DNA of 64,000 nt from Bacillota bacterium (GTDB lineage Bacteria; Bacillota; TC1): the NCBI GenBank assembly GCA_024635925.1, contig JAGXHY010000016.1, positions 1 to 64,000 of the forward strand. The letters run 5' to 3'. A program made the translations under genes and the position numbers. Positions 6,026-16,937 of this stretch are shown piece by piece. Every line of letters starts with the position of its first letter. Position 1 is the stretch's first letter. The notes below the pieces were generated by a model, which was not told where the DNA came from, made no database searches, and saw nothing but the letters and a program-made list of their open reading frames with translations.

Positions 6026-7165
6026 ATGAATTTTAATCTCACGAGCACCCAAAAATTACTTCAAGATTTTTATCAAAGATTTGCAGAAAAAGAAATAAAA
6101 CCATTAGCGAAGAAAATGGATGAAGAAGAAAGATATGATCTAGAGTTATTAGAAAAAATGCAAAAGTGTGGTTTTTTTGGAATACCCTACTCTAAAGAAT
6201 ATGGAGGTGCAGGAGCAGATACAATGGCATATGTTCTTTGCATGGAAGAAGTTTCAAAAGTTGATGCAAGCTCAGGCATTACAATATCTGTACATACTTC
6301 ACTTTGTTGTTCTTGTATTAGTGATTTTGGGACAGAAGATCAAAAACAAAAATATCTAAGACCATTAGTAGATGGCTCTAAAATAGGTTGTTTTTCCTTA
6401 ACAGAACCAAATGCAGGTTCTGATGCAGGAGGACAACAAACAAGTGCAGTCCTTGAAGGTGATTACTATATATTAAATGGATCAAAAGTATTTACAACAA
6501 ATTCTGGCTTTGCTGATACTTTTATAATATTTGCAGTTACAGATAAAGCCTCAGGTACTGATGGAATATCTGCATTCATAGTCGAAGGGGATAGTCCAGG
6601 ACTTACTGTAGGAGCTAATATGCCAAGAATGGGCATAAGAGCTTCCTCGAATTGTGAAGTTGCTATCAATAATCTGAAAGTACCAAAAGAAAATATGCTA
6701 AGAAGAGAAGGAGAAGGTTTTGAAATAGCCCTAAAAGCTTTAGATGGTGGAAGGATAGGCATTGGAGCCCAATCAGTTGGTATAGCCCAGGGTGCTTTAA
6801 ATGAAGCTATGCAATATGTAAGAGAAAGAAAACAATTTGGTAAACCAATAGCAGCCTTCCAAAATACTAAGTTCAAAATAGCTGAAATGCAAACAAAAAT
6901 AGATGGAGCTAGACTATTAGTTTGGAGAGCAGCCTTAGCCAAAGATGATAAGAAAGAATATAGTGACTTAGCAGCTATGTGTAAACTATTTGGCTCCGAA
7001 GTTGCCAATGAAGTTACAAGAGTTTGTGTACAACTGCTTGGAGGTTATGGCTACTCAAGAGAATATCCAGTAGAAAGAATGATGCGTGATGCTAAAATCA
7101 CTGAAATATATGAAGGAACCTCTGAAGTTATGAAAATGGTTATAGCTGGTTCCTTAAAAATATAG
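6026..7165 (+). CDS. Acyl-CoA dehydrogenase, butyryl-CoA dehydrogenase type
   Basis: 379 residues, the normal length. Motifs include CFSLTEPNAGSDAG (FAD contact, signature 1), RKQFGKPIAAFQ and the C-terminal GGYGYSREYPVERMMRD. The likely catalytic base is Glu363 in ITEIYEGTSE. It is a flavoprotein that oxidises or reduces the C2-C3 bond of acyl-CoA using ETF. With etfB and etfA directly downstream it resembles the clostridial Bcd-EtfAB complex, which couples crotonyl-CoA reduction by NADH to ferredoxin reduction. That coupling, and the exact acyl chain (butyryl, caffeyl, acryloyl), are inferred from context only. The ribosome site is AGAAGGAG. Confidence 0.93.
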   Translation: MNFNLTSTQKLLQDFYQRFAEKEIKPLAKKMDEEERYDLELLEKMQKCGFFGIPYSKEYGGAGADTMAYVLCMEEVSKVDASSGITISVHTSLCCSCISDFGTEDQKQKYLRPLVDGSKIGCFSLTEPNAGSDAGGQQTSAVLEGDYYILNGSKVFTTNSGFADTFIIFAVTDKASGTDGISAFIVEGDSPGLTVGANMPRMGIRASSNCEVAINNLKVPKENMLRREGEGFEIALKALDGGRIGIGAQSVGIAQGALNEAMQYVRERKQFGKPIAAFQNTKFKIAEMQTKIDGARLLVWRAALAKDDKKEYSDLAAMCKLFGSEVANEVTRVCVQLLGGYGYSREYPVERMMRDAKITEIYEGTSEVMKMVIAGSLKI

Positions 7166-7181
7166 GAAAGAGGATAAGATA

Positions 7182-7973
7182 TTGAAAATATTAGTTTGTG
7201 TTAAACAAGTACCAGATACTAGTGAAGTTACCCTTGATCCAATAACTAATACATTAATAAGAAAAGGCATAAAAAGTATTATAAACCCGGATGATAAAGC
7301 AGGTATTGAAGCAGCTCTAAAATTAAAAGATCAGGTTGAGGGAAGTCAAATAACTGTAATTTCAATGGGGCCAAAACAAGCTGAGATTGCCTTGCGGGAA
7401 GCTTTAGCTATGGGTTGTGATGAAGGTTATCTTGTATCTGACCGGAAATTTGGAGGTTCGGATACTTTGGCCACTTCTACAATATTAGCGGCAGCCTTAA
7501 AGAAAATAGGATTTGATGTAATAATTACAGGTAGACAAGCCATAGATGGAGATACGGCTCAAGTAGGGCCACAAATAGCAGAACATCTAAAAATACCTCA
7601 TGTTAGTTATGTTGAAGAGTTTGAGGTTGACGGAGATGCTTTGATTGTCTTAAGACAATTTGAAGATAGATATCATAAAATTAGAATAAAATTTCCATGT
7701 CTATTAACTGCAATCAGTGGTTTTGGGGAGATAAAATATTTAACTGTAGCTGGAGTTATAGAAGCTGAAAAGAAAGAACTTAAATATCTTAACTACGAAG
7801 ATTTAAAGGATTTACTTGATGAGGGATGTATTGGTCTTAAGGGTTCTCCAACTAAAGTTGTGAAATCCTATACAAAAGAACAAAAATCACAAGGAACTCT
7901 GCTTAAGGGACTAACTACAAATGAAGCAGTTGATGCTATTATGGCAAGATTAAAAGAAGGGCATATCTTATAG
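7182..7973 (+). CDS. etfB: Electron transfer flavoprotein, beta subunit
   Basis: 263 residues starting at TTG (AGGAAAGAGGA upstream). MKILVCVKQVPDTSEV, the IINPDDKAGIEAALKLK segment and the nucleotide-binding VIITGRQAIDGDTAQVGPQ are characteristic of EtfB. It forms a heterodimer with EtfA, carrying the FAD/AMP site, and passes electrons to or from the acyl-CoA dehydrogenase encoded 16 bp upstream. The IINPDD form is common in EtfB from anaerobic bifurcating complexes, but bifurcation cannot be proved from sequence by eye. Confidence 0.94.
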   Translation: MKILVCVKQVPDTSEVTLDPITNTLIRKGIKSIINPDDKAGIEAALKLKDQVEGSQITVISMGPKQAEIALREALAMGCDEGYLVSDRKFGGSDTLATSTILAAALKKIGFDVIITGRQAIDGDTAQVGPQIAEHLKIPHVSYVEEFEVDGDALIVLRQFEDRYHKIRIKFPCLLTAISGFGEIKYLTVAGVIEAEKKELKYLNYEDLKDLLDEGCIGLKGSPTKVVKSYTKEQKSQGTLLKGLTTNEAVDAIMARLKEGHIL

Positions 7974-7979
7974 GGGTGT

Positions 7980-9800
7980 ATGAAATTGAGTAAAGATATA
8001 TATGTTTTTATAGAACAAAGAGATGGAATAATTCAAAATGTTAGTTATGAACTTTTAGGAGAAGCTAATTCTTTAGCTGAAGATATTGGTCAAAAAGTAG
8101 TAGGGATAATACTCGGAAGTGAAATAGAAGTTATGGCAAAGAACTTAATTATGTATGGAGCTGATGAAGTTATAGTAGTGGATCATCCAATCTTAAAAGA
8201 ATATATGACAGAATCTTATACTAAAGCTATGACAGAGTTAATTAAGAGTAATGAACCAGAAATAGTTCTATTTGGAGCAACTTCAATTGGTAGAGATTTA
8301 GGACCTCGTATTTCTGCAAGAATTAGAACAGGATTAACAGCTGATTGCACCTCTTTGTGCATAGATCCAAAAAATAAGGGGTTACATATGACTAGACCAG
8401 CCTTTGGTGGTAATCTAATGGCTGTTATAAAGTGTGAAAACCATAGACCTCAAATGGCTACAATACGACCAGGAGTTATGCAAGCTATGGAAAAAGATGA
8501 AAATAGAAAAGGTATAGTAAGAAATGTAGCTATAGATTTTTCAAATATTGGTAATGAAGTGGAAATTTTAGAAATAATTAAGAAAAATAAGAAAGTTACT
8601 GATATTGCTAAATCAAAATATATAGTAGGTGGTGGTCGTGGCGTTGGAAATACTAAGAATTTTGAAATGTTAAACAAATTAGCTTCTACTTTAGGTGGTG
8701 AGGTTGCAGGATCTAGAGCTGCTGTTGAAGCTGGTTGGATTGATGCTGATAGACAAGTTGGACAAACAGGTAAAAATGTTAAACCAGATTTATATATTGC
8801 ATGTGGGATAAGTGGAGCAATCCAACATGTGGCGGGTATGGAGAATTCTGGTATGATAATAGCTATTAATAAAAATGAAACAGCACCAATCTTTGATGTA
8901 GCAGATTTAGGAGTTGTAGGTGATATTACAACTATTATACCTCCACTAATAGAGGCTATAAAAAAAGCCAAAGCTGAAGGTATGGATTATATTGCACCTT
9001 CTTCATTAAAATATATGGGTATGGAGAATATTCTTTTTAATAAAAAAGATGGAATTGCCTACCTGACTATAAATAGACCTAGATTTTTAAATGCTTTAAA
9101 TAGAAAAACTTTATTAGAAATTGGTGCAGTTGTAGATTTATTAGAAAATGATGAATCTACTCTAGTAGTAATTGTTCGAGGTGCTGGTGGAAGAGCTTTT
9201 GTAGCTGGAGCTGATATTTCTAAAATGCAAGATATGAATGTAGAAGAAGGAGAGGAAATCTCAACTCTTGCTCAGACAGTCTTTTCTAAATTGAAAAAAT
9301 TACCTCAAGTTGTTATTGGGGCTATTAATGGTTATGCTTTAGGTGGTGGGAATGAATTGGCTATGGCTTGTGATATTCGTATAGCTAGTAGTAGAGCAAA
9401 ATTTGGACAACCAGAAGTAAAACTTGGTCTTATTCCCGGTTTTGGGGGAACACAACGTCTTCAAAGAATTGTAGGACAAGGTTATTCTAAGGAGTTAATT
9501 TTTACTGGAGAAATGATTAGTGCAGAGGAAGCTTATAGAATTGGGTTAGTTAATCGTGTTGTTCCTCCAGAAGCTCTTAATCGAGTAGTTAATGATTTAG
9601 CTCTAAAGATTATAAGTAATGGTAGTAAGGCTGTTAAATTGGCTAAGAAGTCTATTAATGAAGGTGGTAATGTTGATTTAGAGAGTGGCTTAGCTATAGA
9701 GAATAGAGATTGGACTAATTGTTTTACAAATGAAGAATCAAAAGAAGGTATGAAGGCTTTTGTCGAAAAACGTAAGGCAAATTTTAAAGACTTTAAGTAG
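7980..9800 (+). CDS. EtfA fused to enoyl-CoA hydratase (crotonase)
   Basis: 606 residues in one uninterrupted frame. Residues 1 to about 335 are ETF alpha: N-terminal domain with IVLFGATSIGRDLGPRISAR, then the FAD-binding domain with GGGRGVG, GEVAGSRAAVEAGW, DRQVGQTGKNVKPDLYIACG and GISGAIQHVAGM. From about residue 348 a complete crotonase follows: INRPRFLNALN, the oxyanion-hole segment GADISKM, and both catalytic glutamates in ALGGGNELAMACD and GQPEVKLGLIPG. There is no stop and no ribosome site between the halves. The product would place hydratase and ETF activities on one chain beside acyl-CoA dehydrogenase, consistent with channelling 3-hydroxyacyl-CoA to acyl-CoA. Thiolase and 3-hydroxyacyl-CoA dehydrogenase are not in the window. 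Confidence 0.93.
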   Translation: MKLSKDIYVFIEQRDGIIQNVSYELLGEANSLAEDIGQKVVGIILGSEIEVMAKNLIMYGADEVIVVDHPILKEYMTESYTKAMTELIKSNEPEIVLFGATSIGRDLGPRISARIRTGLTADCTSLCIDPKNKGLHMTRPAFGGNLMAVIKCENHRPQMATIRPGVMQAMEKDENRKGIVRNVAIDFSNIGNEVEILEIIKKNKKVTDIAKSKYIVGGGRGVGNTKNFEMLNKLASTLGGEVAGSRAAVEAGWIDADRQVGQTGKNVKPDLYIACGISGAIQHVAGMENSGMIIAINKNETAPIFDVADLGVVGDITTIIPPLIEAIKKAKAEGMDYIAPSSLKYMGMENILFNKKDGIAYLTINRPRFLNALNRKTLLEIGAVVDLLENDESTLVVIVRGAGGRAFVAGADISKMQDMNVEEGEEISTLAQTVFSKLKKLPQVVIGAINGYALGGGNELAMACDIRIASSRAKFGQPEVKLGLIPGFGGTQRLQRIVGQGYSKELIFTGEMISAEEAYRIGLVNRVVPPEALNRVVNDLALKIISNGSKAVKLAKKSINEGGNVDLESGLAIENRDWTNCFTNEESKEGMKAFVEKRKANFKDFK

Positions 9801-9810
9801 GAGGTAAAAA

Positions 9811-10353
9811 ATGGATTTTTTAGAATGTGTGAAAGGTAGAAGAAGTGTCAGAAAATTTAAAGATACTAAGATAGGTCATGATGTTTTATTGAGGGTAGTT
9901 GAGTATTCATCATTTTCTCCATCTTGGAAGAATTCTCAGACAGCAAGGTATATTGTAGTTGAAGATAGAGATATATTAGATAAAATTGCCGATGATTGTC
10001 TTAATGGTTTCGTATTTAATGCAAATACAATAAAGCAAGCCCCAGCTCTTGTATTAGTCACTTATGTCACTGGAAGAAGTGGCTATGAAAAGGATGGGTC
10101 TTTTTCTACTAGTAAGGGTGATCGTTGGGAAATGTTTGATGCTGGTATTGCATCACAAACTTTTTCATTAGCTGCTTTTAATGAAGGGCTTGGTTGTGTT
10201 ATTTTTGGTATATTTAACGAAGAAAAGGTAAGTGAGGTTGTTGGTATTCCTAAAGATCAAAAGTTAGCTACTATGATAGCTATAGGGTATCCTGATGAGG
10301 AACCTGCCATGCCAAAACGTAAGAGTGTTGAGGAATTGGTTGAATTTAGATAA
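9811..10353 (+). CDS. Nitroreductase-family FMN oxidoreductase
   Basis: 180 residues. RRSVRKFKDTKI is the FMN-phosphate motif of the nitroreductase fold. Other motifs are PSWKNSQTARYIVV, the DAGIASQTFSLAAFNEGLGCV helix and a C-terminal IAIGYPDEEPAMPKRK, all typical of small clostridial nitroreductases. It begins 10 bp after the EtfA-crotonase gene with AGGAGGT, so it is the last gene of the acyl-CoA operon. Its substrate is unknown; an electron-transfer or enoate-reducing role linked to the operon is possible. Confidence 0.88.
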   Translation: MDFLECVKGRRSVRKFKDTKIGHDVLLRVVEYSSFSPSWKNSQTARYIVVEDRDILDKIADDCLNGFVFNANTIKQAPALVLVTYVTGRSGYEKDGSFSTSKGDRWEMFDAGIASQTFSLAAFNEGLGCVIFGIFNEEKVSEVVGIPKDQKLATMIAIGYPDEEPAMPKRKSVEELVEFR

Positions 10354-10370
10354 GTTTTGTATGATGAGTT

Positions 10371-10416
10371 AAGGTTTATAACAAGTAATTTTTTGTTTTA
10401 AACCTTGGCTTTTTTA
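10371..10416 (+). terminator. Rho-independent terminator of the acyl-CoA operon
   Basis: AAGGTTTA-T-AACAA pairs with TTGTT-T-TAAACCTT (one T-T mismatch) and is followed by GGCTTTTTTATT. Confidence 0.8.
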
Positions 10417-10423
10417 TTATTGA

Positions 10424-10452
10424 TTGACATGTTATGGAATAGTTTATAGAAT
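10424..10452 (+). promoter_or_regulatory. Sigma-A-type promoter for the DUF1538 operon
   Basis: TTGACA, 17-bp spacer, TAGAAT, placed just after the preceding terminator and about 48 bp before the DUF1538 start. Confidence 0.7.
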
Positions 10453-10499
10453 AATAATTAATATGGAAATAGACTATTAGGGAAAGGAAGTGAGGCCTT

Positions 10500-11978
10500 T
10501 TGAATATACTAAGCAGTAAGTTTCGCGAAGTTTTTTTTGCTGTACTACCTGTTACTTTGATAGTTGTTATTCTTAACTTCACGCTAGTACCAATTCCTAA
10601 TAATCTAATGTGGCAATTTATAATAGGATTTATATTAGTAACCATTGGTCTGACATTGTTTCTAGTTGGGGTAGATTTAGGTATAACGCCACTAGGTATG
10701 CTTCTTGGACCAATAATAACCAAGTGGAACAAGCTTTGGTTAGTTCTGATAGCTGCTTTCTTCCTGGGCTTTATAATTTCCTTTGCCGAACCGGATTTAA
10801 TTATCCTAGGTAATCAAATTGAATATATAACTTCAGGAGGCATTGCTAGTATAACAATTATTTCAGTTGTATCTCTTGGTATTGCTGTTTTGATGATACT
10901 GGGTTTCTTGAGAATAATCTATAACATTCCATTATTTATAATACTAAATATCCTTTATGCTATTATCCTAATTTTAGCCATATTTACCCAACCTGAATTT
11001 CTTGCAATTGCATTTGATACCTCGGGCGCAACAACTGGAGCACTGGCAGTTCCTTTCATCCTATCTCTATCCATGGGTCTTACATCAATAAAGAAGGATA
11101 GAAAGGCATCGGAAAAAGATAGTTTCGGCTTGGTTTCAATAGTATCAGCAGGAGCAATTATTTCTGTTATGATTTTAAATCTAGTAACAAAAAAACAGGA
11201 GTATTCTGAAATCTTAAAGGACAATAGTAAAGAATCCTTGTCTGTAGCTATGGCATTTATTAGTAATATAACAGAAGGACTCATAGATAGCCTTTTTGCC
11301 TTTTTACCTTTGTTTTTGATTTTTATATTTTTAATAATTTTTACTAAGTCAATTAATAAGGCAGAAATCAAGCGCATTACCTTTGGCTTTGTTTATTCTA
11401 TGGTAGGGCTTGGAATATTCTTTATTGGAATCCATACTGGTTTTATGGATGTTGGTGGTACTATTGGAGGATACTTGGTTTCACTGGATTCTTATGTTTT
11501 TTTAATAGGCATAGGATTCCTCCTTGGTGTTTTTACCATAATCGCCGAACCTGCAGTTCATGTACTTACACAGCAGATTGAAGAAGTAACCGCAGGTTTT
11601 GTCAAAAAAAGTTCTGTGCTAATTGCCTTATCTATTGGAGTTGGGTTTGCAATTGCCTTATCGGTACTTAGGATAGTTGTAAGTGGAATAGAATTGTGGC
11701 ATTATCTACTTCCAGGATACCTTATAGCCTTGGGATTAACTTTTGTTGTGCCTAAGTTATTTGTTGGTATAGCTTTTGATGCCGGTGGTGTAGCAACTGG
11801 TCCTATAACGGCCACTTTCATATTGGCTTTTATCAATGGAGCTGCTTATGAGCATAGTAATGCAAGTATTCTGATTGATGGCTTTGGGATGATAGCCTTG
11901 GTAGCTTTAATGCCGATAATTACTCTTCAAATATTAGGTTTGTTATATAGAATTAAGTCTTCTAAGAAGGAGGTATGA
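10500..11978 (+). CDS. DUF1538 tandem-repeat integral membrane protein
   Basis: 492 residues, TTG start after GGAAAGGAAG. It has about twelve or more hydrophobic segments and a clear internal duplication. FAEPDLIILGNQIEYITSGG (from about residue 95) recurs as IAEPAVHVLTQQIEEVTAG, and AFDTSGATTGALAVPFIL (171 on) recurs as AFDAGGVATGPITATFIL (425 on). This is the two-copy DUF1538 layout. The repeats with conserved acidic, polar and glycine residues inside membrane segments look like a transporter or channel, but no substrate is known. The next gene, 3 bp downstream, encodes a PII-like protein, which suggests gating by a nucleotide-sensing regulator as AmtB is by GlnK. That comparison is inference. 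Confidence 0.88.
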   Translation: MNILSSKFREVFFAVLPVTLIVVILNFTLVPIPNNLMWQFIIGFILVTIGLTLFLVGVDLGITPLGMLLGPIITKWNKLWLVLIAAFFLGFIISFAEPDLIILGNQIEYITSGGIASITIISVVSLGIAVLMILGFLRIIYNIPLFIILNILYAIILILAIFTQPEFLAIAFDTSGATTGALAVPFILSLSMGLTSIKKDRKASEKDSFGLVSIVSAGAIISVMILNLVTKKQEYSEILKDNSKESLSVAMAFISNITEGLIDSLFAFLPLFLIFIFLIIFTKSINKAEIKRITFGFVYSMVGLGIFFIGIHTGFMDVGGTIGGYLVSLDSYVFLIGIGFLLGVFTIIAEPAVHVLTQQIEEVTAGFVKKSSVLIALSIGVGFAIALSVLRIVVSGIELWHYLLPGYLIALGLTFVVPKLFVGIAFDAGGVATGPITATFILAFINGAAYEHSNASILIDGFGMIALVALMPIITLQILGLLYRIKSSKKEV

Positions 11979-11981
11979 TTT

Positions 11982-12653
11982 GTGAGTATTGATAATAGTT
12001 TGTTTTCCTTTGACTTGAATGTGGTAATTGTAAAACATGGGTTTGGGAGCAGAGTTATATCCTTAGCTAAGGCTTGTGGGATTTCTGGTGGTACTATAGT
12101 CTTTGGTAAGGGTATATCTAGAAATTCTCTACTTCGGCTTTTGGAGATAGCGGATAGTAGTAATGAAGTGGTACTAATATTATCCGACAAGGTAAAAGGT
12201 GATGATTTTATACAAAGGGCTTTATTGGAGTTTAGATTGGAAAAACCTAATAGAGGGATAGCCTTTAAAATGCCTGTTTGCAATATATTATGCACCCGTT
12301 GTCATTGTAGTATTGATGAGGAACACACAGAAAGTGAGGTTGGTAAAATGAGTTCATACAGTTCAATTTTTGTTATTGTTGATAAGGGTGTAGCTGGCTT
12401 GGTAGTTAAAGCTGGTAGGGCAGGTGGAGCTCGTGGAGCTACTATTATTGATGGGCGAGGAGCGGGTATTCATGAGACTAGCAAACTCTTTGCCATGGAG
12501 ATTGAACCTGAGAAAGAGATAGTCCTCCTTATTGTACCGAGTGACCTTACTAAGTCTGTTAGTGATATGATAAGAGAAAAAGTTGGAATGGACGAAGCAG
12601 GTAAGGGAATTATATTTGTTCAAGAAGTTAGTGAAGTCTATGGATTGAATTAG
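11982..12653 (+). CDS. Tandem PII-like regulatory protein with cysteine cluster
   Basis: 223 residues, GTG start with AAGGAGGT. Two PII-like halves are seen. Residues 10-95 contain LNVVIVKHGFGSRVISLAKACGI and GISGGTIVFGKG. Residues 128-223 contain IFVIVDKGVAGLVVKAGRAGGARGATIIDGRGAG, the typical PII beta-strand plus G-x-x-G-x-T-I-x-x-G-R-G T-loop base. Between them lies a cysteine cluster, Cys100, Cys104, Cys107 and Cys109 (CNILCTRCHC), that could bind a metal or iron-sulfur cluster. It belongs to the P-II superfamily that accompanies DUF1538 membrane proteins, and likely senses a nucleotide or metabolite and acts on the upstream membrane protein. Confidence 0.85.
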   Translation: MSIDNSLFSFDLNVVIVKHGFGSRVISLAKACGISGGTIVFGKGISRNSLLRLLEIADSSNEVVLILSDKVKGDDFIQRALLEFRLEKPNRGIAFKMPVCNILCTRCHCSIDEEHTESEVGKMSSYSSIFVIVDKGVAGLVVKAGRAGGARGATIIDGRGAGIHETSKLFAMEIEPEKEIVLLIVPSDLTKSVSDMIREKVGMDEAGKGIIFVQEVSEVYGLN

Positions 12654-12657
12654 TAAC

Positions 12658-12686
12658 TTGCCAACATGTCGATAAAGTAGTATTAT
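12658..12686 (+). promoter_or_regulatory. Promoter for the rubredoxin-like gene
   Basis: TTGCCA, 17-bp spacer, TATTAT, starting 5 bp after the PII-like gene's stop. Confidence 0.6.
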
Positions 12687-12729
12687 CAAATATGCATAGA
12701 AAAATATGTTTTGAAAGGAGATATTTATT

Positions 12730-13059
12730 ATGTTATGGAAATGTTCAAATTGTGGATTTTTACACGAAGGTGATGAGGCCCCTGATATTTGCCCAAAATG
12801 TGGTGTAAGTAAGGATAAATATGTTGCTTTATCTGAAGAGGATGGAGAAAAAGTTTATACTTCCGATCGTACAAATGATATTCATATGGAAATTATAGAC
12901 TTATCAATGAGAATTTGTGAACTTGCTTTAGAAGGGGTTGAGATTAATCTTGATCCAGCTTGTGTTTCAGTTTTTGAAAAGGCCTGTGATGAAGCTTGGA
13001 TTATTAAACAAAGAAGTAAAGCAGAGATTGCAAGTCATATGACAAAAGGTAAATGGTAA
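12730..13059 (+). CDS. Rubredoxin-domain protein
   Basis: 109 residues. The N-terminal 35 residues form a rubredoxin-like zinc/iron knuckle: CSNCGFLHEGDEAPDICPKCG, the C-x2-C...C-x2-C arrangement seen at the end of rubrerythrins. The C-terminal 65 residues are helical and acidic, with two further cysteines and no ferritin-like EExxH motif, so this is not a complete rubrerythrin. It could be an electron carrier for oxygen or peroxide defence. Strong AAAGGAG ribosome site, own promoter and terminator, so monocistronic. Confidence 0.85.
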   Translation: MLWKCSNCGFLHEGDEAPDICPKCGVSKDKYVALSEEDGEKVYTSDRTNDIHMEIIDLSMRICELALEGVEINLDPACVSVFEKACDEAWIIKQRSKAEIASHMTKGKW

Positions 13060-13077
13060 AAAATTATAAATAATATT

Positions 13078-13113
13078 AAAGGGTATACACTATTTTGTGT
13101 ATACTCTTTTTTA
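13078..13113 (+). terminator. Rho-independent terminator
   Basis: GGGTATACAC-TATTTT-GTGTATACTC followed by a run of T. Confidence 0.92.
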
Positions 13114-13121
13114 TTAAACCC

Positions 13122-13150
13122 TTGTTAGTATTGAATCAATAAGGTAATAT
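13122..13150 (+). promoter_or_regulatory. Promoter for the nitroreductase-MsrA fusion
   Basis: TTGTTA, 17-bp spacer, TAATAT, immediately after the preceding terminator. Confidence 0.55.
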
Positions 13151-13196
13151 CAATATAAAGAGGTAATTATTTCAATGTATATAATAGGAGGTAGCC

Positions 13197-14552
13197 ATGA
13201 ATGATATAGTAAAAATAGTAATTCAAAGAAAATCTATAAGGACCTACACTGATGAGCCACTAAGTAATGAGGTTAGAAGTCAGATAGAAGAGTATTTTAC
13301 TAAACTTGATAATCCTTGGGGGGTAAAAATAAACTATACTTTGATCGATACTAAGGGTGAAAATACTAATGGAAAATTAGGTACTTATGGTGTTATTAGA
13401 AATGCTAGTAGCTTTATTGCAGCAACACTATTTGATGAAGAATTTGCTTTAGAAGCACTAGGTTTTGAATTAGAAGTATTAATTCTTTATCTTACTAGTT
13501 TGGGAATTGGAACTTGTTGGCTAGGAGGAACATTCAACAGAGGAGAATTCGCCAAAGAAGCTAAGTTAACGGAAGGACAAATAATACCGATTATTACACC
13601 AATTGGTTATCCTGCAAAAAAAACTTCATTAACTGACAAATTAATGAGAAAAATGTCTAAAGGAGATTCAAGAAAAGAATGGAATGAATTATTCTTCCTC
13701 CAAGATTTTAGTAATATACTAACAAAGAAAGAAGCAGGTATTTATAGGGAAGCTTTAGAAATGGTTAGACTTGCACCTTCAGCTTCAAATAAACAACCTT
13801 GGAGAATCATAAAAGAAACTAATATCTACCATTTTTTCGAATATTCTACACCAGGTTATAGTAAAGCTTTTAATTATGATATACAAAGAATAGATATGGG
13901 AATTGCTGCTGCACATTTTCAGCTAACAATAAAAGAGAAAAAGATAAAAGGTGAATTTGCTGTACTAGAACAACAAATTTCAGCACCAGAAAATACATAT
14001 TATAGGTTTAGCTGGATAGGAGAAAGATCAGAAGAATTAGTTATGGGAGAATTAAAGGAAATTTATCTTGCCGGTGGATGTTTTTGGGGAACACAAAAAT
14101 ATCTTTCATTAATTAATGGTGTTATAAGCTCAGAAGTAGGGTATGCAAATGGTAATACAAGCAATCCTAGTTATCAGGATGTGTGTTACCGTAATACTGG
14201 ACATACAGAAACTGTTAAATTAGTTTATGATTCTAATATTATTCCATTAGCATCAGTTCTTAAACTTTTTTATGATGTTATTAATCCTGTTTCTGTAAAT
14301 AAACAAGGAAATGATGTTGGAAGCCAATATCGTTCAGGAATATACTATGTTGATGAAAAAGATAAAGATGTGATACTTGAATCCATAGCAGAATTACAAG
14401 AACAATATACTGAAAAAATAGCTATAGAAGTATTGGCCTTAGAAAACTATACAAAAGCTGAAGAGGCTCACCAAGATTACTTGAATAAAAATCCAGGAGG
14501 TTATTGCCATATTGGACCAGATAGTTTTGAAAAAGTAAGAAAAATGAATTAG
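13197..14552 (+). CDS. Nitroreductase domain fused to peptide-methionine (S)-S-oxide reductase MsrA
   Basis: 451 residues in one frame. Residues 1 to about 275 are a TM1586-type nitroreductase-like domain: QRKSIRTYTDEPLS, GIGTCWLGGTFNRGEF and LAPSASNKQPWRII. From about residue 284 comes a complete MsrA: catalytic GGCFWG, EVGYANGNTSNPSYQDVCY, GHTETVKLVYD, GSQYRSGIYY and EEAHQDYLNKNPGGYCHI. MsrA reduces methionine-S-sulfoxide in proteins, normally recycled by thioredoxin. The flavin-type N-terminal domain might supply electrons or act independently. MsrB is absent here. The linker still carries a GGAG-like sequence, as if two genes had merged. AGGAGGT ribosome site. Confidence 0.93.
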   Translation: MNDIVKIVIQRKSIRTYTDEPLSNEVRSQIEEYFTKLDNPWGVKINYTLIDTKGENTNGKLGTYGVIRNASSFIAATLFDEEFALEALGFELEVLILYLTSLGIGTCWLGGTFNRGEFAKEAKLTEGQIIPIITPIGYPAKKTSLTDKLMRKMSKGDSRKEWNELFFLQDFSNILTKKEAGIYREALEMVRLAPSASNKQPWRIIKETNIYHFFEYSTPGYSKAFNYDIQRIDMGIAAAHFQLTIKEKKIKGEFAVLEQQISAPENTYYRFSWIGERSEELVMGELKEIYLAGGCFWGTQKYLSLINGVISSEVGYANGNTSNPSYQDVCYRNTGHTETVKLVYDSNIIPLASVLKLFYDVINPVSVNKQGNDVGSQYRSGIYYVDEKDKDVILESIAELQEQYTEKIAIEVLALENYTKAEEAHQDYLNKNPGGYCHIGPDSFEKVRKMN

Positions 14553-14572
14553 TAATAATCATCAAGAGTCAT

Positions 14573-14600
14573 TTGCATATATTTTATGGTATAGTATAAA
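14573..14600 (+). promoter_or_regulatory. Promoter for the glycosyltransferase/acyltransferase pair
   Basis: TTGCAT, 16-bp spacer, TATAAA, about 29 bp before the chosen start. Confidence 0.55.
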
Positions 14601-14628
14601 TTAATGATATAAATATATGAGGTGGAAT

Positions 14629-15744
14629 ATGCAAATAATAAGCTATGTAACAATAAGTATTGGGATTTTAGCCACATTTTTATTGTTTTTTAATCTTCCT
14701 AGGATTAAAAAAGAAAAAGATGAAAAAGACTGTTATGAAAGTCCTACAATATCTGTAATAATACCTGCTAGAAATGAAGAAAATAATCTACCCAATATTT
14801 TAAATGATCTATTAAAACAAACCTATCCAATAAAGGAAATAATTTGTGTGGATGATGGTTCAACAGATGGAACTCCAGAAATTATTAGGAATTATTCAAA
14901 TAACAAAAAGGTGGAATTAAAGTCAGTAGAAGTTAAAAGTCTACCAATTGGTTGGAAAGGAAAAACTTGGGCCTGTCAAAATGGAGCAAGTTTAGCTAAA
15001 GGTGAGTTATTACTATTTTTAGACTCAGATATTAGATTATCAAACAGTAGTATAGAAATATTAGTTGATCGGTATTTGAAAAATAGACAACCTATATCAA
15101 TTCAGCCCTATCACTGTATGAAGAAGAACTATGAATATCTATCACTTTTTTTTAATATGATACAAACCTGTGCTACAGGTCTTAGTGTTTTTGGAAAAAA
15201 GAAAAAGAAAGGTTTTTATGGACCTCTATTATTTATAGAAAGAGATATTTTTAATAAATTTGGTGGTTATGAAAAGGTCAAAAATAAAGTCGTTGAGGAT
15301 TTTGATTTAGGTAAATACCTTAGAAGTAAAGGTATATATATTGAACTACTCCTTGGTGGAGATGAAATATCTTATAGAATGTATCCTAAGTCAGTCAAAG
15401 ATTTATTTGAAGGATGGTCTAAGAATTTTGCTTTGGCATCACTTTCAATGGATTGGTGGCTATTTATCTTTATTATTATCTGGATAGGTTTCTTAACTGT
15501 ATTACCAATAGAAATATTTAAATCTATTTTATTTGGGGAAACTAGTTCATTATTAATTCTTATTGGTATATACGGATATTGTATATTATCAATTTACCGG
15601 ATTGGAAGGGCTATAGGTTCATTTCCTATATATACTTATGTTTTTTATCCTGTATACTTATTGGTCTTTCATTTAACCTATCTTTATTCAATAATAGGGA
15701 CATATATATTAAAATCAACAACCTGGAAGGGTAGAAAGTTGTAG
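14629..15744 (+). CDS. GT2 glycosyltransferase, CrtQ-like
   Basis: About 371 residues. An N-terminal membrane helix is followed by a GT2 domain: ISVIIPARNEENNLPNIL, CVDDGSTDGT (nucleotide-binding aspartates), FLDSDIRL (DxD-type metal motif) and VVEDFDLGKYLRSKGI (ED acceptor motif). Three or four C-terminal membrane helices complete it. The layout and the acyltransferase next door match 4,4'-diaponeurosporenoate glycosyltransferase (CrtQ) of Staphylococcus. No carotenoid synthase or desaturase gene is present, so the real acceptor may be another lipid. GAGGTGG at 14619-14625 serves the ATG at 14629 rather than the in-frame ATG at 14617, which contains it. Confidence 0.85.
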   Translation: MQIISYVTISIGILATFLLFFNLPRIKKEKDEKDCYESPTISVIIPARNEENNLPNILNDLLKQTYPIKEIICVDDGSTDGTPEIIRNYSNNKKVELKSVEVKSLPIGWKGKTWACQNGASLAKGELLLFLDSDIRLSNSSIEILVDRYLKNRQPISIQPYHCMKKNYEYLSLFFNMIQTCATGLSVFGKKKKKGFYGPLLFIERDIFNKFGGYEKVKNKVVEDFDLGKYLRSKGIYIELLLGGDEISYRMYPKSVKDLFEGWSKNFALASLSMDWWLFIFIIIWIGFLTVLPIEIFKSILFGETSSLLILIGIYGYCILSIYRIGRAIGSFPIYTYVFYPVYLLVFHLTYLYSIIGTYILKSTTWKGRKL

Positions 15745-15752
15745 GTGAGTTA

Positions 15753-16937
15753 ATGCAAATATTTTTCATATCAGATTGGTTGATGATTATATCATATTTT
15801 GTTGGATGGTCAATTATACAATTATTAGTTGCATTAAGCATTAATAAACTAGATGATAAATACTTTAATCCAGATAATTTTTGGTTAAAAACTAGAAAAG
15901 GGGAACTAACCTTTTATAGAGATGTATTGAAAATAAAAAAGTGGAAGCATTATCTGCCAGATGGAGCAAGGGCTTCTAAAAAAGGCTTTAGAAAAAAAAA
16001 TCTATCCAGTTTTCAAACAGATTATTTAGAAACTTTTATTTTTGAAACTGGTAAAGCAGAAATAATGCATTGGTTACAAATAGTTCCATTTTTTATTTTT
16101 GGACTTTGGAGTCCTCCATTTGTAGTTTGGATAATGCTAGCTTATGCATTAATAGTAAATTTGCCATGCATTATAACTCAAAGGTATAATAGACCTAGAT
16201 TGGTGAAGATATATAAGGCTAAGGGTAAGCAGAGTTTTAAAGGAAGTATTTCAAAGAGTGAAGAAAAAAAATGCAAAATCAAAATAATAAAAAATGGACC
16301 ATATATTGTGAGTGGTAATATTCCCCTTACAGAGAAGATAATAACGCCTAAGGATAACGGATATGTATATACCCAAGGTGAGGAATATGAAGATAAGGAA
16401 ACTTATTCTTTATGTAGATGTGGTAAAACTAAAACCCCACCTTATTGTGATGGATCTCATGTGGAAGCGCATTTTAATGGTGTGGAAAGAGCTTCTGAAG
16501 AAAAATATCATAAGAGAGCTGCAGTGCTTGAGGGTCCTGATTTGGATCTATTAGATGATGATAGATGTGCTTATGCTAGATTTTGTCACAGAGATGCTGG
16601 GAACGTATGGGAACTAACACTAATGTCAGATAATCCTGAGCTAAAGAAAGAAGCTATTATAGGTGCTTATCAATGTCCAACGGGCAGATTAATAGCCAGA
16701 GAAAAAGATGGATTTGAAATTGATCCAGTACATCCACCAAGTATAGAAATATTACAAGACCCAGAAAAAAATGTTAGTTGTGGAATTTTTGTAAAAGGTG
16801 GAATTGCTTTAGAGGGAAGTGATGGTTTTATTTATGAAACTAGAAACAGATATACATTATGTAGGTGTGGAGAGTCAATAATTAAGCCTTTTTGTGATGC
16901 TAGTCACATAAATTATAGATTTAGAGATGATAAATAA
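15753..16937 (+). CDS. CrtO-like acyltransferase fused to a double CDGSH iron-sulfur protein
   Basis: 394 residues in one frame. Residues 1 to about 155 resemble glycosyl-4,4'-diaponeurosporenoate acyltransferase (CrtO): the KKWKHYLPDGARASKKGF segment, AEIMHWLQIVPFF, and QRYNRPRLVKI closing the membrane domain. Residues 170-394 form a soluble iron-sulfur protein. It has one CDGSH knuckle (CRCGKTKTPPYCDGSH), a central Fer4_19-like segment with CAYARFC and CPTGRL, and a second knuckle with Ala for Gly (CRCGESIIKPFCDASH). Each half is normally a separate protein. The fusion would tether 2Fe-2S clusters to the membrane face where the lipid is acylated, a combination whose purpose is unknown. It follows the glycosyltransferase by 8 bp. 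Confidence 0.85.
   Translation: MQIFFISDWLMIISYFVGWSIIQLLVALSINKLDDKYFNPDNFWLKTRKGELTFYRDVLKIKKWKHYLPDGARASKKGFRKKNLSSFQTDYLETFIFETGKAEIMHWLQIVPFFIFGLWSPPFVVWIMLAYALIVNLPCIITQRYNRPRLVKIYKAKGKQSFKGSISKSEEKKCKIKIIKNGPYIVSGNIPLTEKIITPKDNGYVYTQGEEYEDKETYSLCRCGKTKTPPYCDGSHVEAHFNGVERASEEKYHKRAAVLEGPDLDLLDDDRCAYARFCHRDAGNVWELTLMSDNPELKKEAIIGAYQCPTGRLIAREKDGFEIDPVHPPSIEILQDPEKNVSCGIFVKGGIALEGSDGFIYETRNRYTLCRCGESIIKPFCDASHINYRFRDDK

Follow-up and report, generated by a model that had tools for sequence, protein, structure and literature searches.

A tandem PII protein encoded next to a two-repeat DUF1538 membrane protein: a candidate PII-gated cation/proton antiporter

In the window (the whole 64,000-nucleotide stretch of Bacillota DNA analysed in this study), a gene for a duplicated membrane protein of the DUF1538 family is directly followed by a gene for a protein with two PII-like halves. 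This arrangement raises the question of whether the pair represents a transporter with its own dedicated regulator and, if so, which substrate is moved and which signal is read. The answer depends on the anatomy of the two genes, on the residues retained by each protein, and on how consistently the two families occur together in other genomes.

Organization of the gene pair

A check of the open reading frames (ORFs) confirmed the coordinates, the tandem gene order and the 3-bp gap reported in the preliminary description of this DNA. The fused two-repeat DUF1538 protein (492 aa), a homologue of UmpAB-type antiporters, is encoded at positions 10500-11978 (+) and starts with TTG, while the tandem PII-superfamily protein (223 aa; PF00543, with AlphaFold2 and Foldseek similarity to GlnK) is encoded at 11982-12653 (+) and starts with GTG. 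A strong ribosome-binding site of the PII gene, AAGGAGG, was read in the sequence at 11968-11974 (+), within the end of the DUF1538 gene. The best promoter-like site upstream of the pair, TTGACA-17-TAGAAT (10424-10452, +; 11/12), is a consensus match only. The two genes probably constitute an operon that encodes a regulated secondary transporter.

Clustering of neighbouring ORFs from 197 loci revealed no third gene specifically common to the neighbourhoods; the largest cluster resembles generic ABC ATPases by sequence. Directly 3' of the PII gene, the window encodes a small protein with a rubredoxin-like N-terminal domain (PF21349; 12730-13059, +), which was not seen as a conserved neighbour of the pair. 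Several other ORFs in the vicinity combine domains. Downstream of acyl-CoA dehydrogenase-like and EtfB-like genes, a 606-aa ORF (7980-9800, +) encodes the alpha subunit of an electron-transfer flavoprotein (PF01012, PF00766) in one chain with an enoyl-CoA hydratase (PF00378), which is an uncommon arrangement in a module of the beta-oxidation or butyrate type. A 451-aa ORF (13197-14552, +) links a nitroreductase-like domain (PF14512) to MsrA, peptide methionine sulfoxide reductase (PF01625), and at 15753-16937 (+) a CrtO-like acyltransferase domain (PF18927) is joined to two CDGSH iron-sulfur motifs (PF09360).

The DUF1538 protein

The membrane protein passed the Pfam gathering score for DUF1538 (PF07556) with two domains (E 1.8e-126; 420 bits vs 22.6). 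Repeat 1 is encoded at 10551-11183 (+) and repeat 2 at 11313-11945 (+), both being PF07556 matches. The duplicated motifs noticed in the preliminary description are present in both repeats, as AEPDLIILGNQIEYITSG / AEPAVHVLTQQIEEVTAG and AFDTSGATTG / AFDAGGVATG. In essentially all 468 aligned repeats, two positions per repeat are acidic: E97/E350 of the AEP motif and D173/D427 of AFDxxGxxTG.

An AlphaFold2 model calculated with an alignment of relatives (pLDDT 86, pTM 0.86) resolves each repeat into approximately seven helical segments, of which two are broken. The conserved motifs lie at the helix breaks, with E97 at the AEP break and D173 at the AFDxxGxTTG break of repeat 1, and their counterparts E350 and D427 in repeat 2. 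The helix number in the earlier assignment to a "12-helix class" is approximate. In the predicted fold, the buried acids E97/D173 and E350/D427 are likely to form the site for the ion and the proton. No solved structure resembling this fold was found by sequence, nor by Foldseek at E <= 0.001.

The sole named NCBIfam relatives of the protein are UmpA and UmpB. The cut-offs of the two equivalog models (NF041627 and NF041628) were not reached (166.4/490 and 143.9/500 bits), and for this reason the protein is described as UmpAB-like rather than filed as UmpAB, and its substrate could differ. DUF1538 was also among the Pfam families tied to growth pH in a machine-learning study of 2026.

Fold and ligand residues of the tandem PII protein

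The two PII-like halves proposed earlier are supported both by the predicted fold and by structural matches to GlnK. Half 1 (residues ~9-100; 12006-12281, +) has a degenerate T-loop region and the B-loop KPNRGIAF, and half 2 (residues ~126-223; 12357-12650, +) has a conserved, shortened T-loop and the B-loop GKGIIFV. Half 1 diverges more than half 2, and only the C half reaches the Pfam P-II family (PF00543) when searched alone (E 3.6e-9, 37.3 bits vs a gathering score of 25). P-II was matched by 68 of 68 aligned relatives. In a profile search against solved structures both halves hit PII proteins, half 1 matching 9p1x chain H (whole-sequence E 4.4e-8) and half 2 several GlnB/GlnK structures. 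The AlphaFold2 model, again built with an alignment of relatives (pLDDT 86, pTM 0.82), shows two PII-like beta-alpha-beta units, and its best Foldseek matches are GlnK structures (probability 1.00; target-normalised TM-score ~0.6-0.7).

In GlnB, residues K90, R101, R103 and Q39 bind the ATP phosphates and position 2-oxoglutarate, and Tyr51 is the site of uridylylation. Half 2 of 166 tandem PIIs was aligned with E. coli GlnB (MG1655 record). T29, G35, G37, G87 and G89, which include the B-loop glycines, are retained, while Q39 occurs in only five of these C halves, K90 in one, R101 in none and R103 in 19. Tyr51 is deleted in 166/166, and the T-loop span corresponding to GlnB residues 37-62 comprises 20 residues instead of 26 in 157/166. 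The shortened loop is itself strongly conserved, with the family consensus RGxGxHExxKLFGxxIEPEKE. The loss of K90, R101, Q39 and Tyr51, together with the shortening of the T-loop, makes ordinary sensing of ATP and 2-oxoglutarate doubtful, judging from the aligned residues; another ligand is possible. The built-in nucleotide sensor envisaged in the preliminary description is not supported in its classical form, given the replacement of K90, R101 and Q39 in nearly all 166 relatives and of R103 in most. By its fold and ancestry the DUF1538-linked subfamily belongs to PII, but not to GlnB/GlnK.

No other PF00543 protein was found in the genome from which the window derives (assembly ~95% complete). 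Another PII was present in 13 of 14 control genomes.

The cysteines of the linker

The two halves are joined by a linker with the motif C-x3-C-x2-C-x-C (C100, C104, C107 and C109; 12279-12308, +), just as reported earlier, where it had been taken as the mark of a possible metal/redox sensor. Conservation among relatives, the measure set in that description itself, refutes this role: the exact four-cysteine motif occurs in 1/166 tandem PIIs, namely the window protein itself, and half of the 166 linkers have no cysteine at all. A relative from the same genus (L098) has a single linker cysteine. Cysteine content is 2.4% in linkers vs 0.85% elsewhere, a ~2.8-fold enrichment (Fisher p ~3e-18, uncorrected for kinship), and CxC or CxxC pairs appear sporadically, in a minority of tandem PII linkers. 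The linker is hypervariable and was modelled by AlphaFold2 with low confidence. On the evidence of these 166 tandem relatives, the cysteine cluster was ruled out as a conserved metal site, and a cysteine sensor as a general feature of tandem PIIs is rejected at the level of the alignment. A lineage-specific metal or disulfide role of the window cysteines is possible, outside the conserved mechanism.

Linkage of DUF1538 and PII across genomes

Among 399 Bacillota genomes, DUF1538 was found in 138 and the PII subfamily in 138, with both present in 136 (the overlap of the two genome lists was compared by eye). The exceptions were two genomes with DUF1538 alone (G056 and G304, the G304 locus stopping at a contig edge) and two with PII alone (G049 and G367). 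Gene neighbourhoods were then read in 120 regions of the Bacillota set, in 80 loci retrieved from GTDB genomes by searching for DUF1538, and around DUF1538 matches in Actinomycetota, Chloroflexota and Spirochaetota. Removal of duplicates and truncated groups left 240 intact DUF1538 gene groups, of which 235 have PII next to DUF1538 or fused to it. In the sets picked by DUF1538 alone, it was adjacent or fused in 72/74 and 56/58. This pairing is far beyond chance. The proposal that the transporter has a dedicated PII-type regulator is supported by this near-universal linkage in the phyla sampled and by the existence of fusions.

The pair occurs in six phyla: Bacillota, Actinomycetota, Chloroflexota, Spirochaetota, Thermotogota and, on plasmids, Pseudomonadota. 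The same gene order was found on three plasmids, two of them alphaproteobacterial and one clostridial, where the NCBI labels are "DUF1538 domain-containing protein" and "P-II family nitrogen regulator". Distances between DUF1538 proteins correlate with those between their PII partners across 133 operons (r = 0.87, inflated by the shared species history of the hosts; 0.00 for shuffled partners). Since the two genes are found together in at least six phyla, the pair probably represents an ion exchanger with a built-in switch. Within Spirochaetota, loci L357-L363 encode longer DUF1538 chains (~630-735 aa) and PII partners of ~365-390 aa with extra sequence; at one of these loci (L361) a recognisable PII was absent from the stretch examined.

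The architecture of the two partners is also matched. DUF1538 repeats fused in one chain go with a tandem PII in 146/152 groups, and repeats encoded by separate genes go with a single PII in 67/83 (odds ratio ~102, Fisher p ~8e-36). Twelve groups consist of one single DUF1538 and one single PII. Six loci (L110, L111, L239, L260, L262 and L321) encode DUF1538-DUF1538-PII fusions in a single chain, and in all of these except L321 a tandem PII gene lies just upstream of the fusion. These five operons encode three PII domains per two transporter repeats, a ratio that may be relevant to how many copies of each partner the complex contains. The operon of Clostridium sp. MAG28 (L185) has two tandem PII genes, the second of which, at 7345-8001, comes after the first.

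Proposed mechanism and alternative explanations

We consider it probable that the pair encodes a PII-gated monovalent cation/proton antiporter, in an operon with a dedicated tandem PII regulator. The DUF1538 protein, with its two fused repeats, would correspond to an UmpA/UmpB heterodimer in one chain, and we infer that it most likely moves the monovalent cations Na+, Li+ and K+ across the cytoplasmic membrane in exchange for protons. The tandem PII would act as its dedicated cytoplasmic regulator. The regulation would involve physical contact, with PII docking on the cytoplasmic face of the transporter via the conserved shortened T-loop of half 2. A small molecule bound between the PII domains may switch transport, comparable to the action of GlnK on AmtB or of SbtB on SbtA. 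This ligand is probably not read through the missing phosphate-binding residues of GlnB; it is likely to be some other nucleotide or metabolite. A broader version of the proposal, which we regard as evenly balanced, is that these proteins form a distinct class of PII with a non-classical ligand site, directly gating a monovalent cation/proton antiporter of unsolved fold, and that the tandem form evolved to match the two-repeat transporter.

The substrate is open to another interpretation. A PII-gated transporter might move something other than a monovalent cation, the UmpAB activity being that of one branch or a side activity. The UmpA and UmpB models match the window protein only remotely (166 and 144 bits vs 490 and 500), Foldseek finds no solved transporter with the DUF1538 fold, and the other PII partners named in the relevant passages of a 2023 review move ammonium, nitrate, urea or bicarbonate (PMC10710835). 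We nevertheless judge this unlikely, given that the acids conserved in every repeat and the association with growth pH fit cation/proton exchange, and that UmpAB is the only characterised relative found.

The identity of the signal could also be sought in the linker, whose cysteines would make the PII a metal or redox sensor steering the transporter. C-x3-C-x2-C-x-C is plausible as a metal site, the linkers are enriched in cysteine with occasional CxC or CxxC pairs, and a rubredoxin-like gene adjoins the PII gene; yet the restriction of the full motif to one sequence, the many cysteine-free linkers and the variability and low modelling confidence of this segment render such a sensor very unlikely. 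Finally, the PII might be a nitrogen or carbon regulator of general scope whose gene lies next to the transporter gene by coincidence, as the NCBI name of its relatives and its status as the only PII found in this genome could imply. This is scarcely credible for a subfamily that essentially never occurs without DUF1538, is matched to the transporter in architecture, and lacks Tyr51, Gln39, Lys90 and Arg101. A generic nitrogen PII was ruled out by this near-exclusive linkage and these residue losses.

Under the broader version, a PII signal would be linked with pH and ion homeostasis in no fewer than six phyla. If the antiporter reading is correct, PII control would reach past nutrient uptake, to the homeostasis of sodium, potassium and pH. 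In many genomes, proteins that carry the label "nitrogen regulator" probably act as transporter switches, which need not concern nitrogen. The fused transporter, the fused PII and the transporter-PII fusions provide ready single-chain constructs for structural work on this unsolved transporter fold.

Comparison with known PII-transporter systems

The description of the window protein as an uncharacterised transporter has to be corrected at the family level, since a 2017 study of the founding DUF1538 pair, the two-component system UmpAB of Halomonas zhaodongensis, demonstrated Na+(Li+,K+)/H+ antiport that was optimal at pH 9.0 (PMC5484666). UmpAB and the window protein share the Pfam family (PF07556), two homologous repeats and conserved acidic residues. 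They differ in that UmpA and UmpB are separate chains, whereas the window protein is a single chain scoring below the equivalog cut-offs, and in that a PII gene lies beside the window DUF1538 gene, while the 2017 paper mentions no PII (PMC5484666). Antiport in E. coli was obtained from a cloned fragment for which four genes are listed, ORF4 (umpB) being the last, with no PII described (PMC5484666). Activity therefore probably does not depend on PII, at least in UmpAB.

As in the GlnK-AmtB system, a PII-fold protein is encoded beside a membrane transporter. GlnK, however, is a single PII with a long T-loop, Tyr51 and an ATP/2-oxoglutarate site, and AmtB is an ammonium channel of an unrelated membrane family. 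SbtB, which is weakly related to the tandem PII by sequence, is likewise a PII-like protein dedicated to one Na+-coupled transporter, and its ligand repertoire differs from that of GlnB; its partner SbtA is a bicarbonate/Na+ symporter, and SbtB has a single PII domain. YitT/DUF2179 proteins, e.g. BB0017, combine a membrane domain with a short-loop PII-like domain without the usual ligand residues; here the membrane domain is a different one, the PII-like domain is fused, and the function of these proteins is itself unknown (PMC6516651). DUF2179 matches the tandem PII set weakly.

In its list of PII-controlled transporters, the 2023 review names AmtB, Amt1, Nrt, Urt and SbtA, and no cation/proton antiporter appears in that list (PMC10710835). 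A passage of this review restricts PII control to transporters able to act as trimers, which counts against the gating reading (PMC10710835). The nearest precedent for a PII with an antiporter is PII-NG, a PF00543 protein encoded next to the proton/cation antiporter CzcABC in Geobacter and other Proteobacteria; it has a single PII domain, and its partner is a heavy-metal RND pump instead of DUF1538 (PMC7726332). No RND pump (CzcABC/CusA) was found among the ORFs at 6026-16937, and the PII partner there is DUF1538, so the pair does not qualify as a PII-NG system. No paper linking DUF1538 with PII was found in the open-licence literature. The DUF1538-PII pair is a variant of the PII-transporter theme that is new to this literature.
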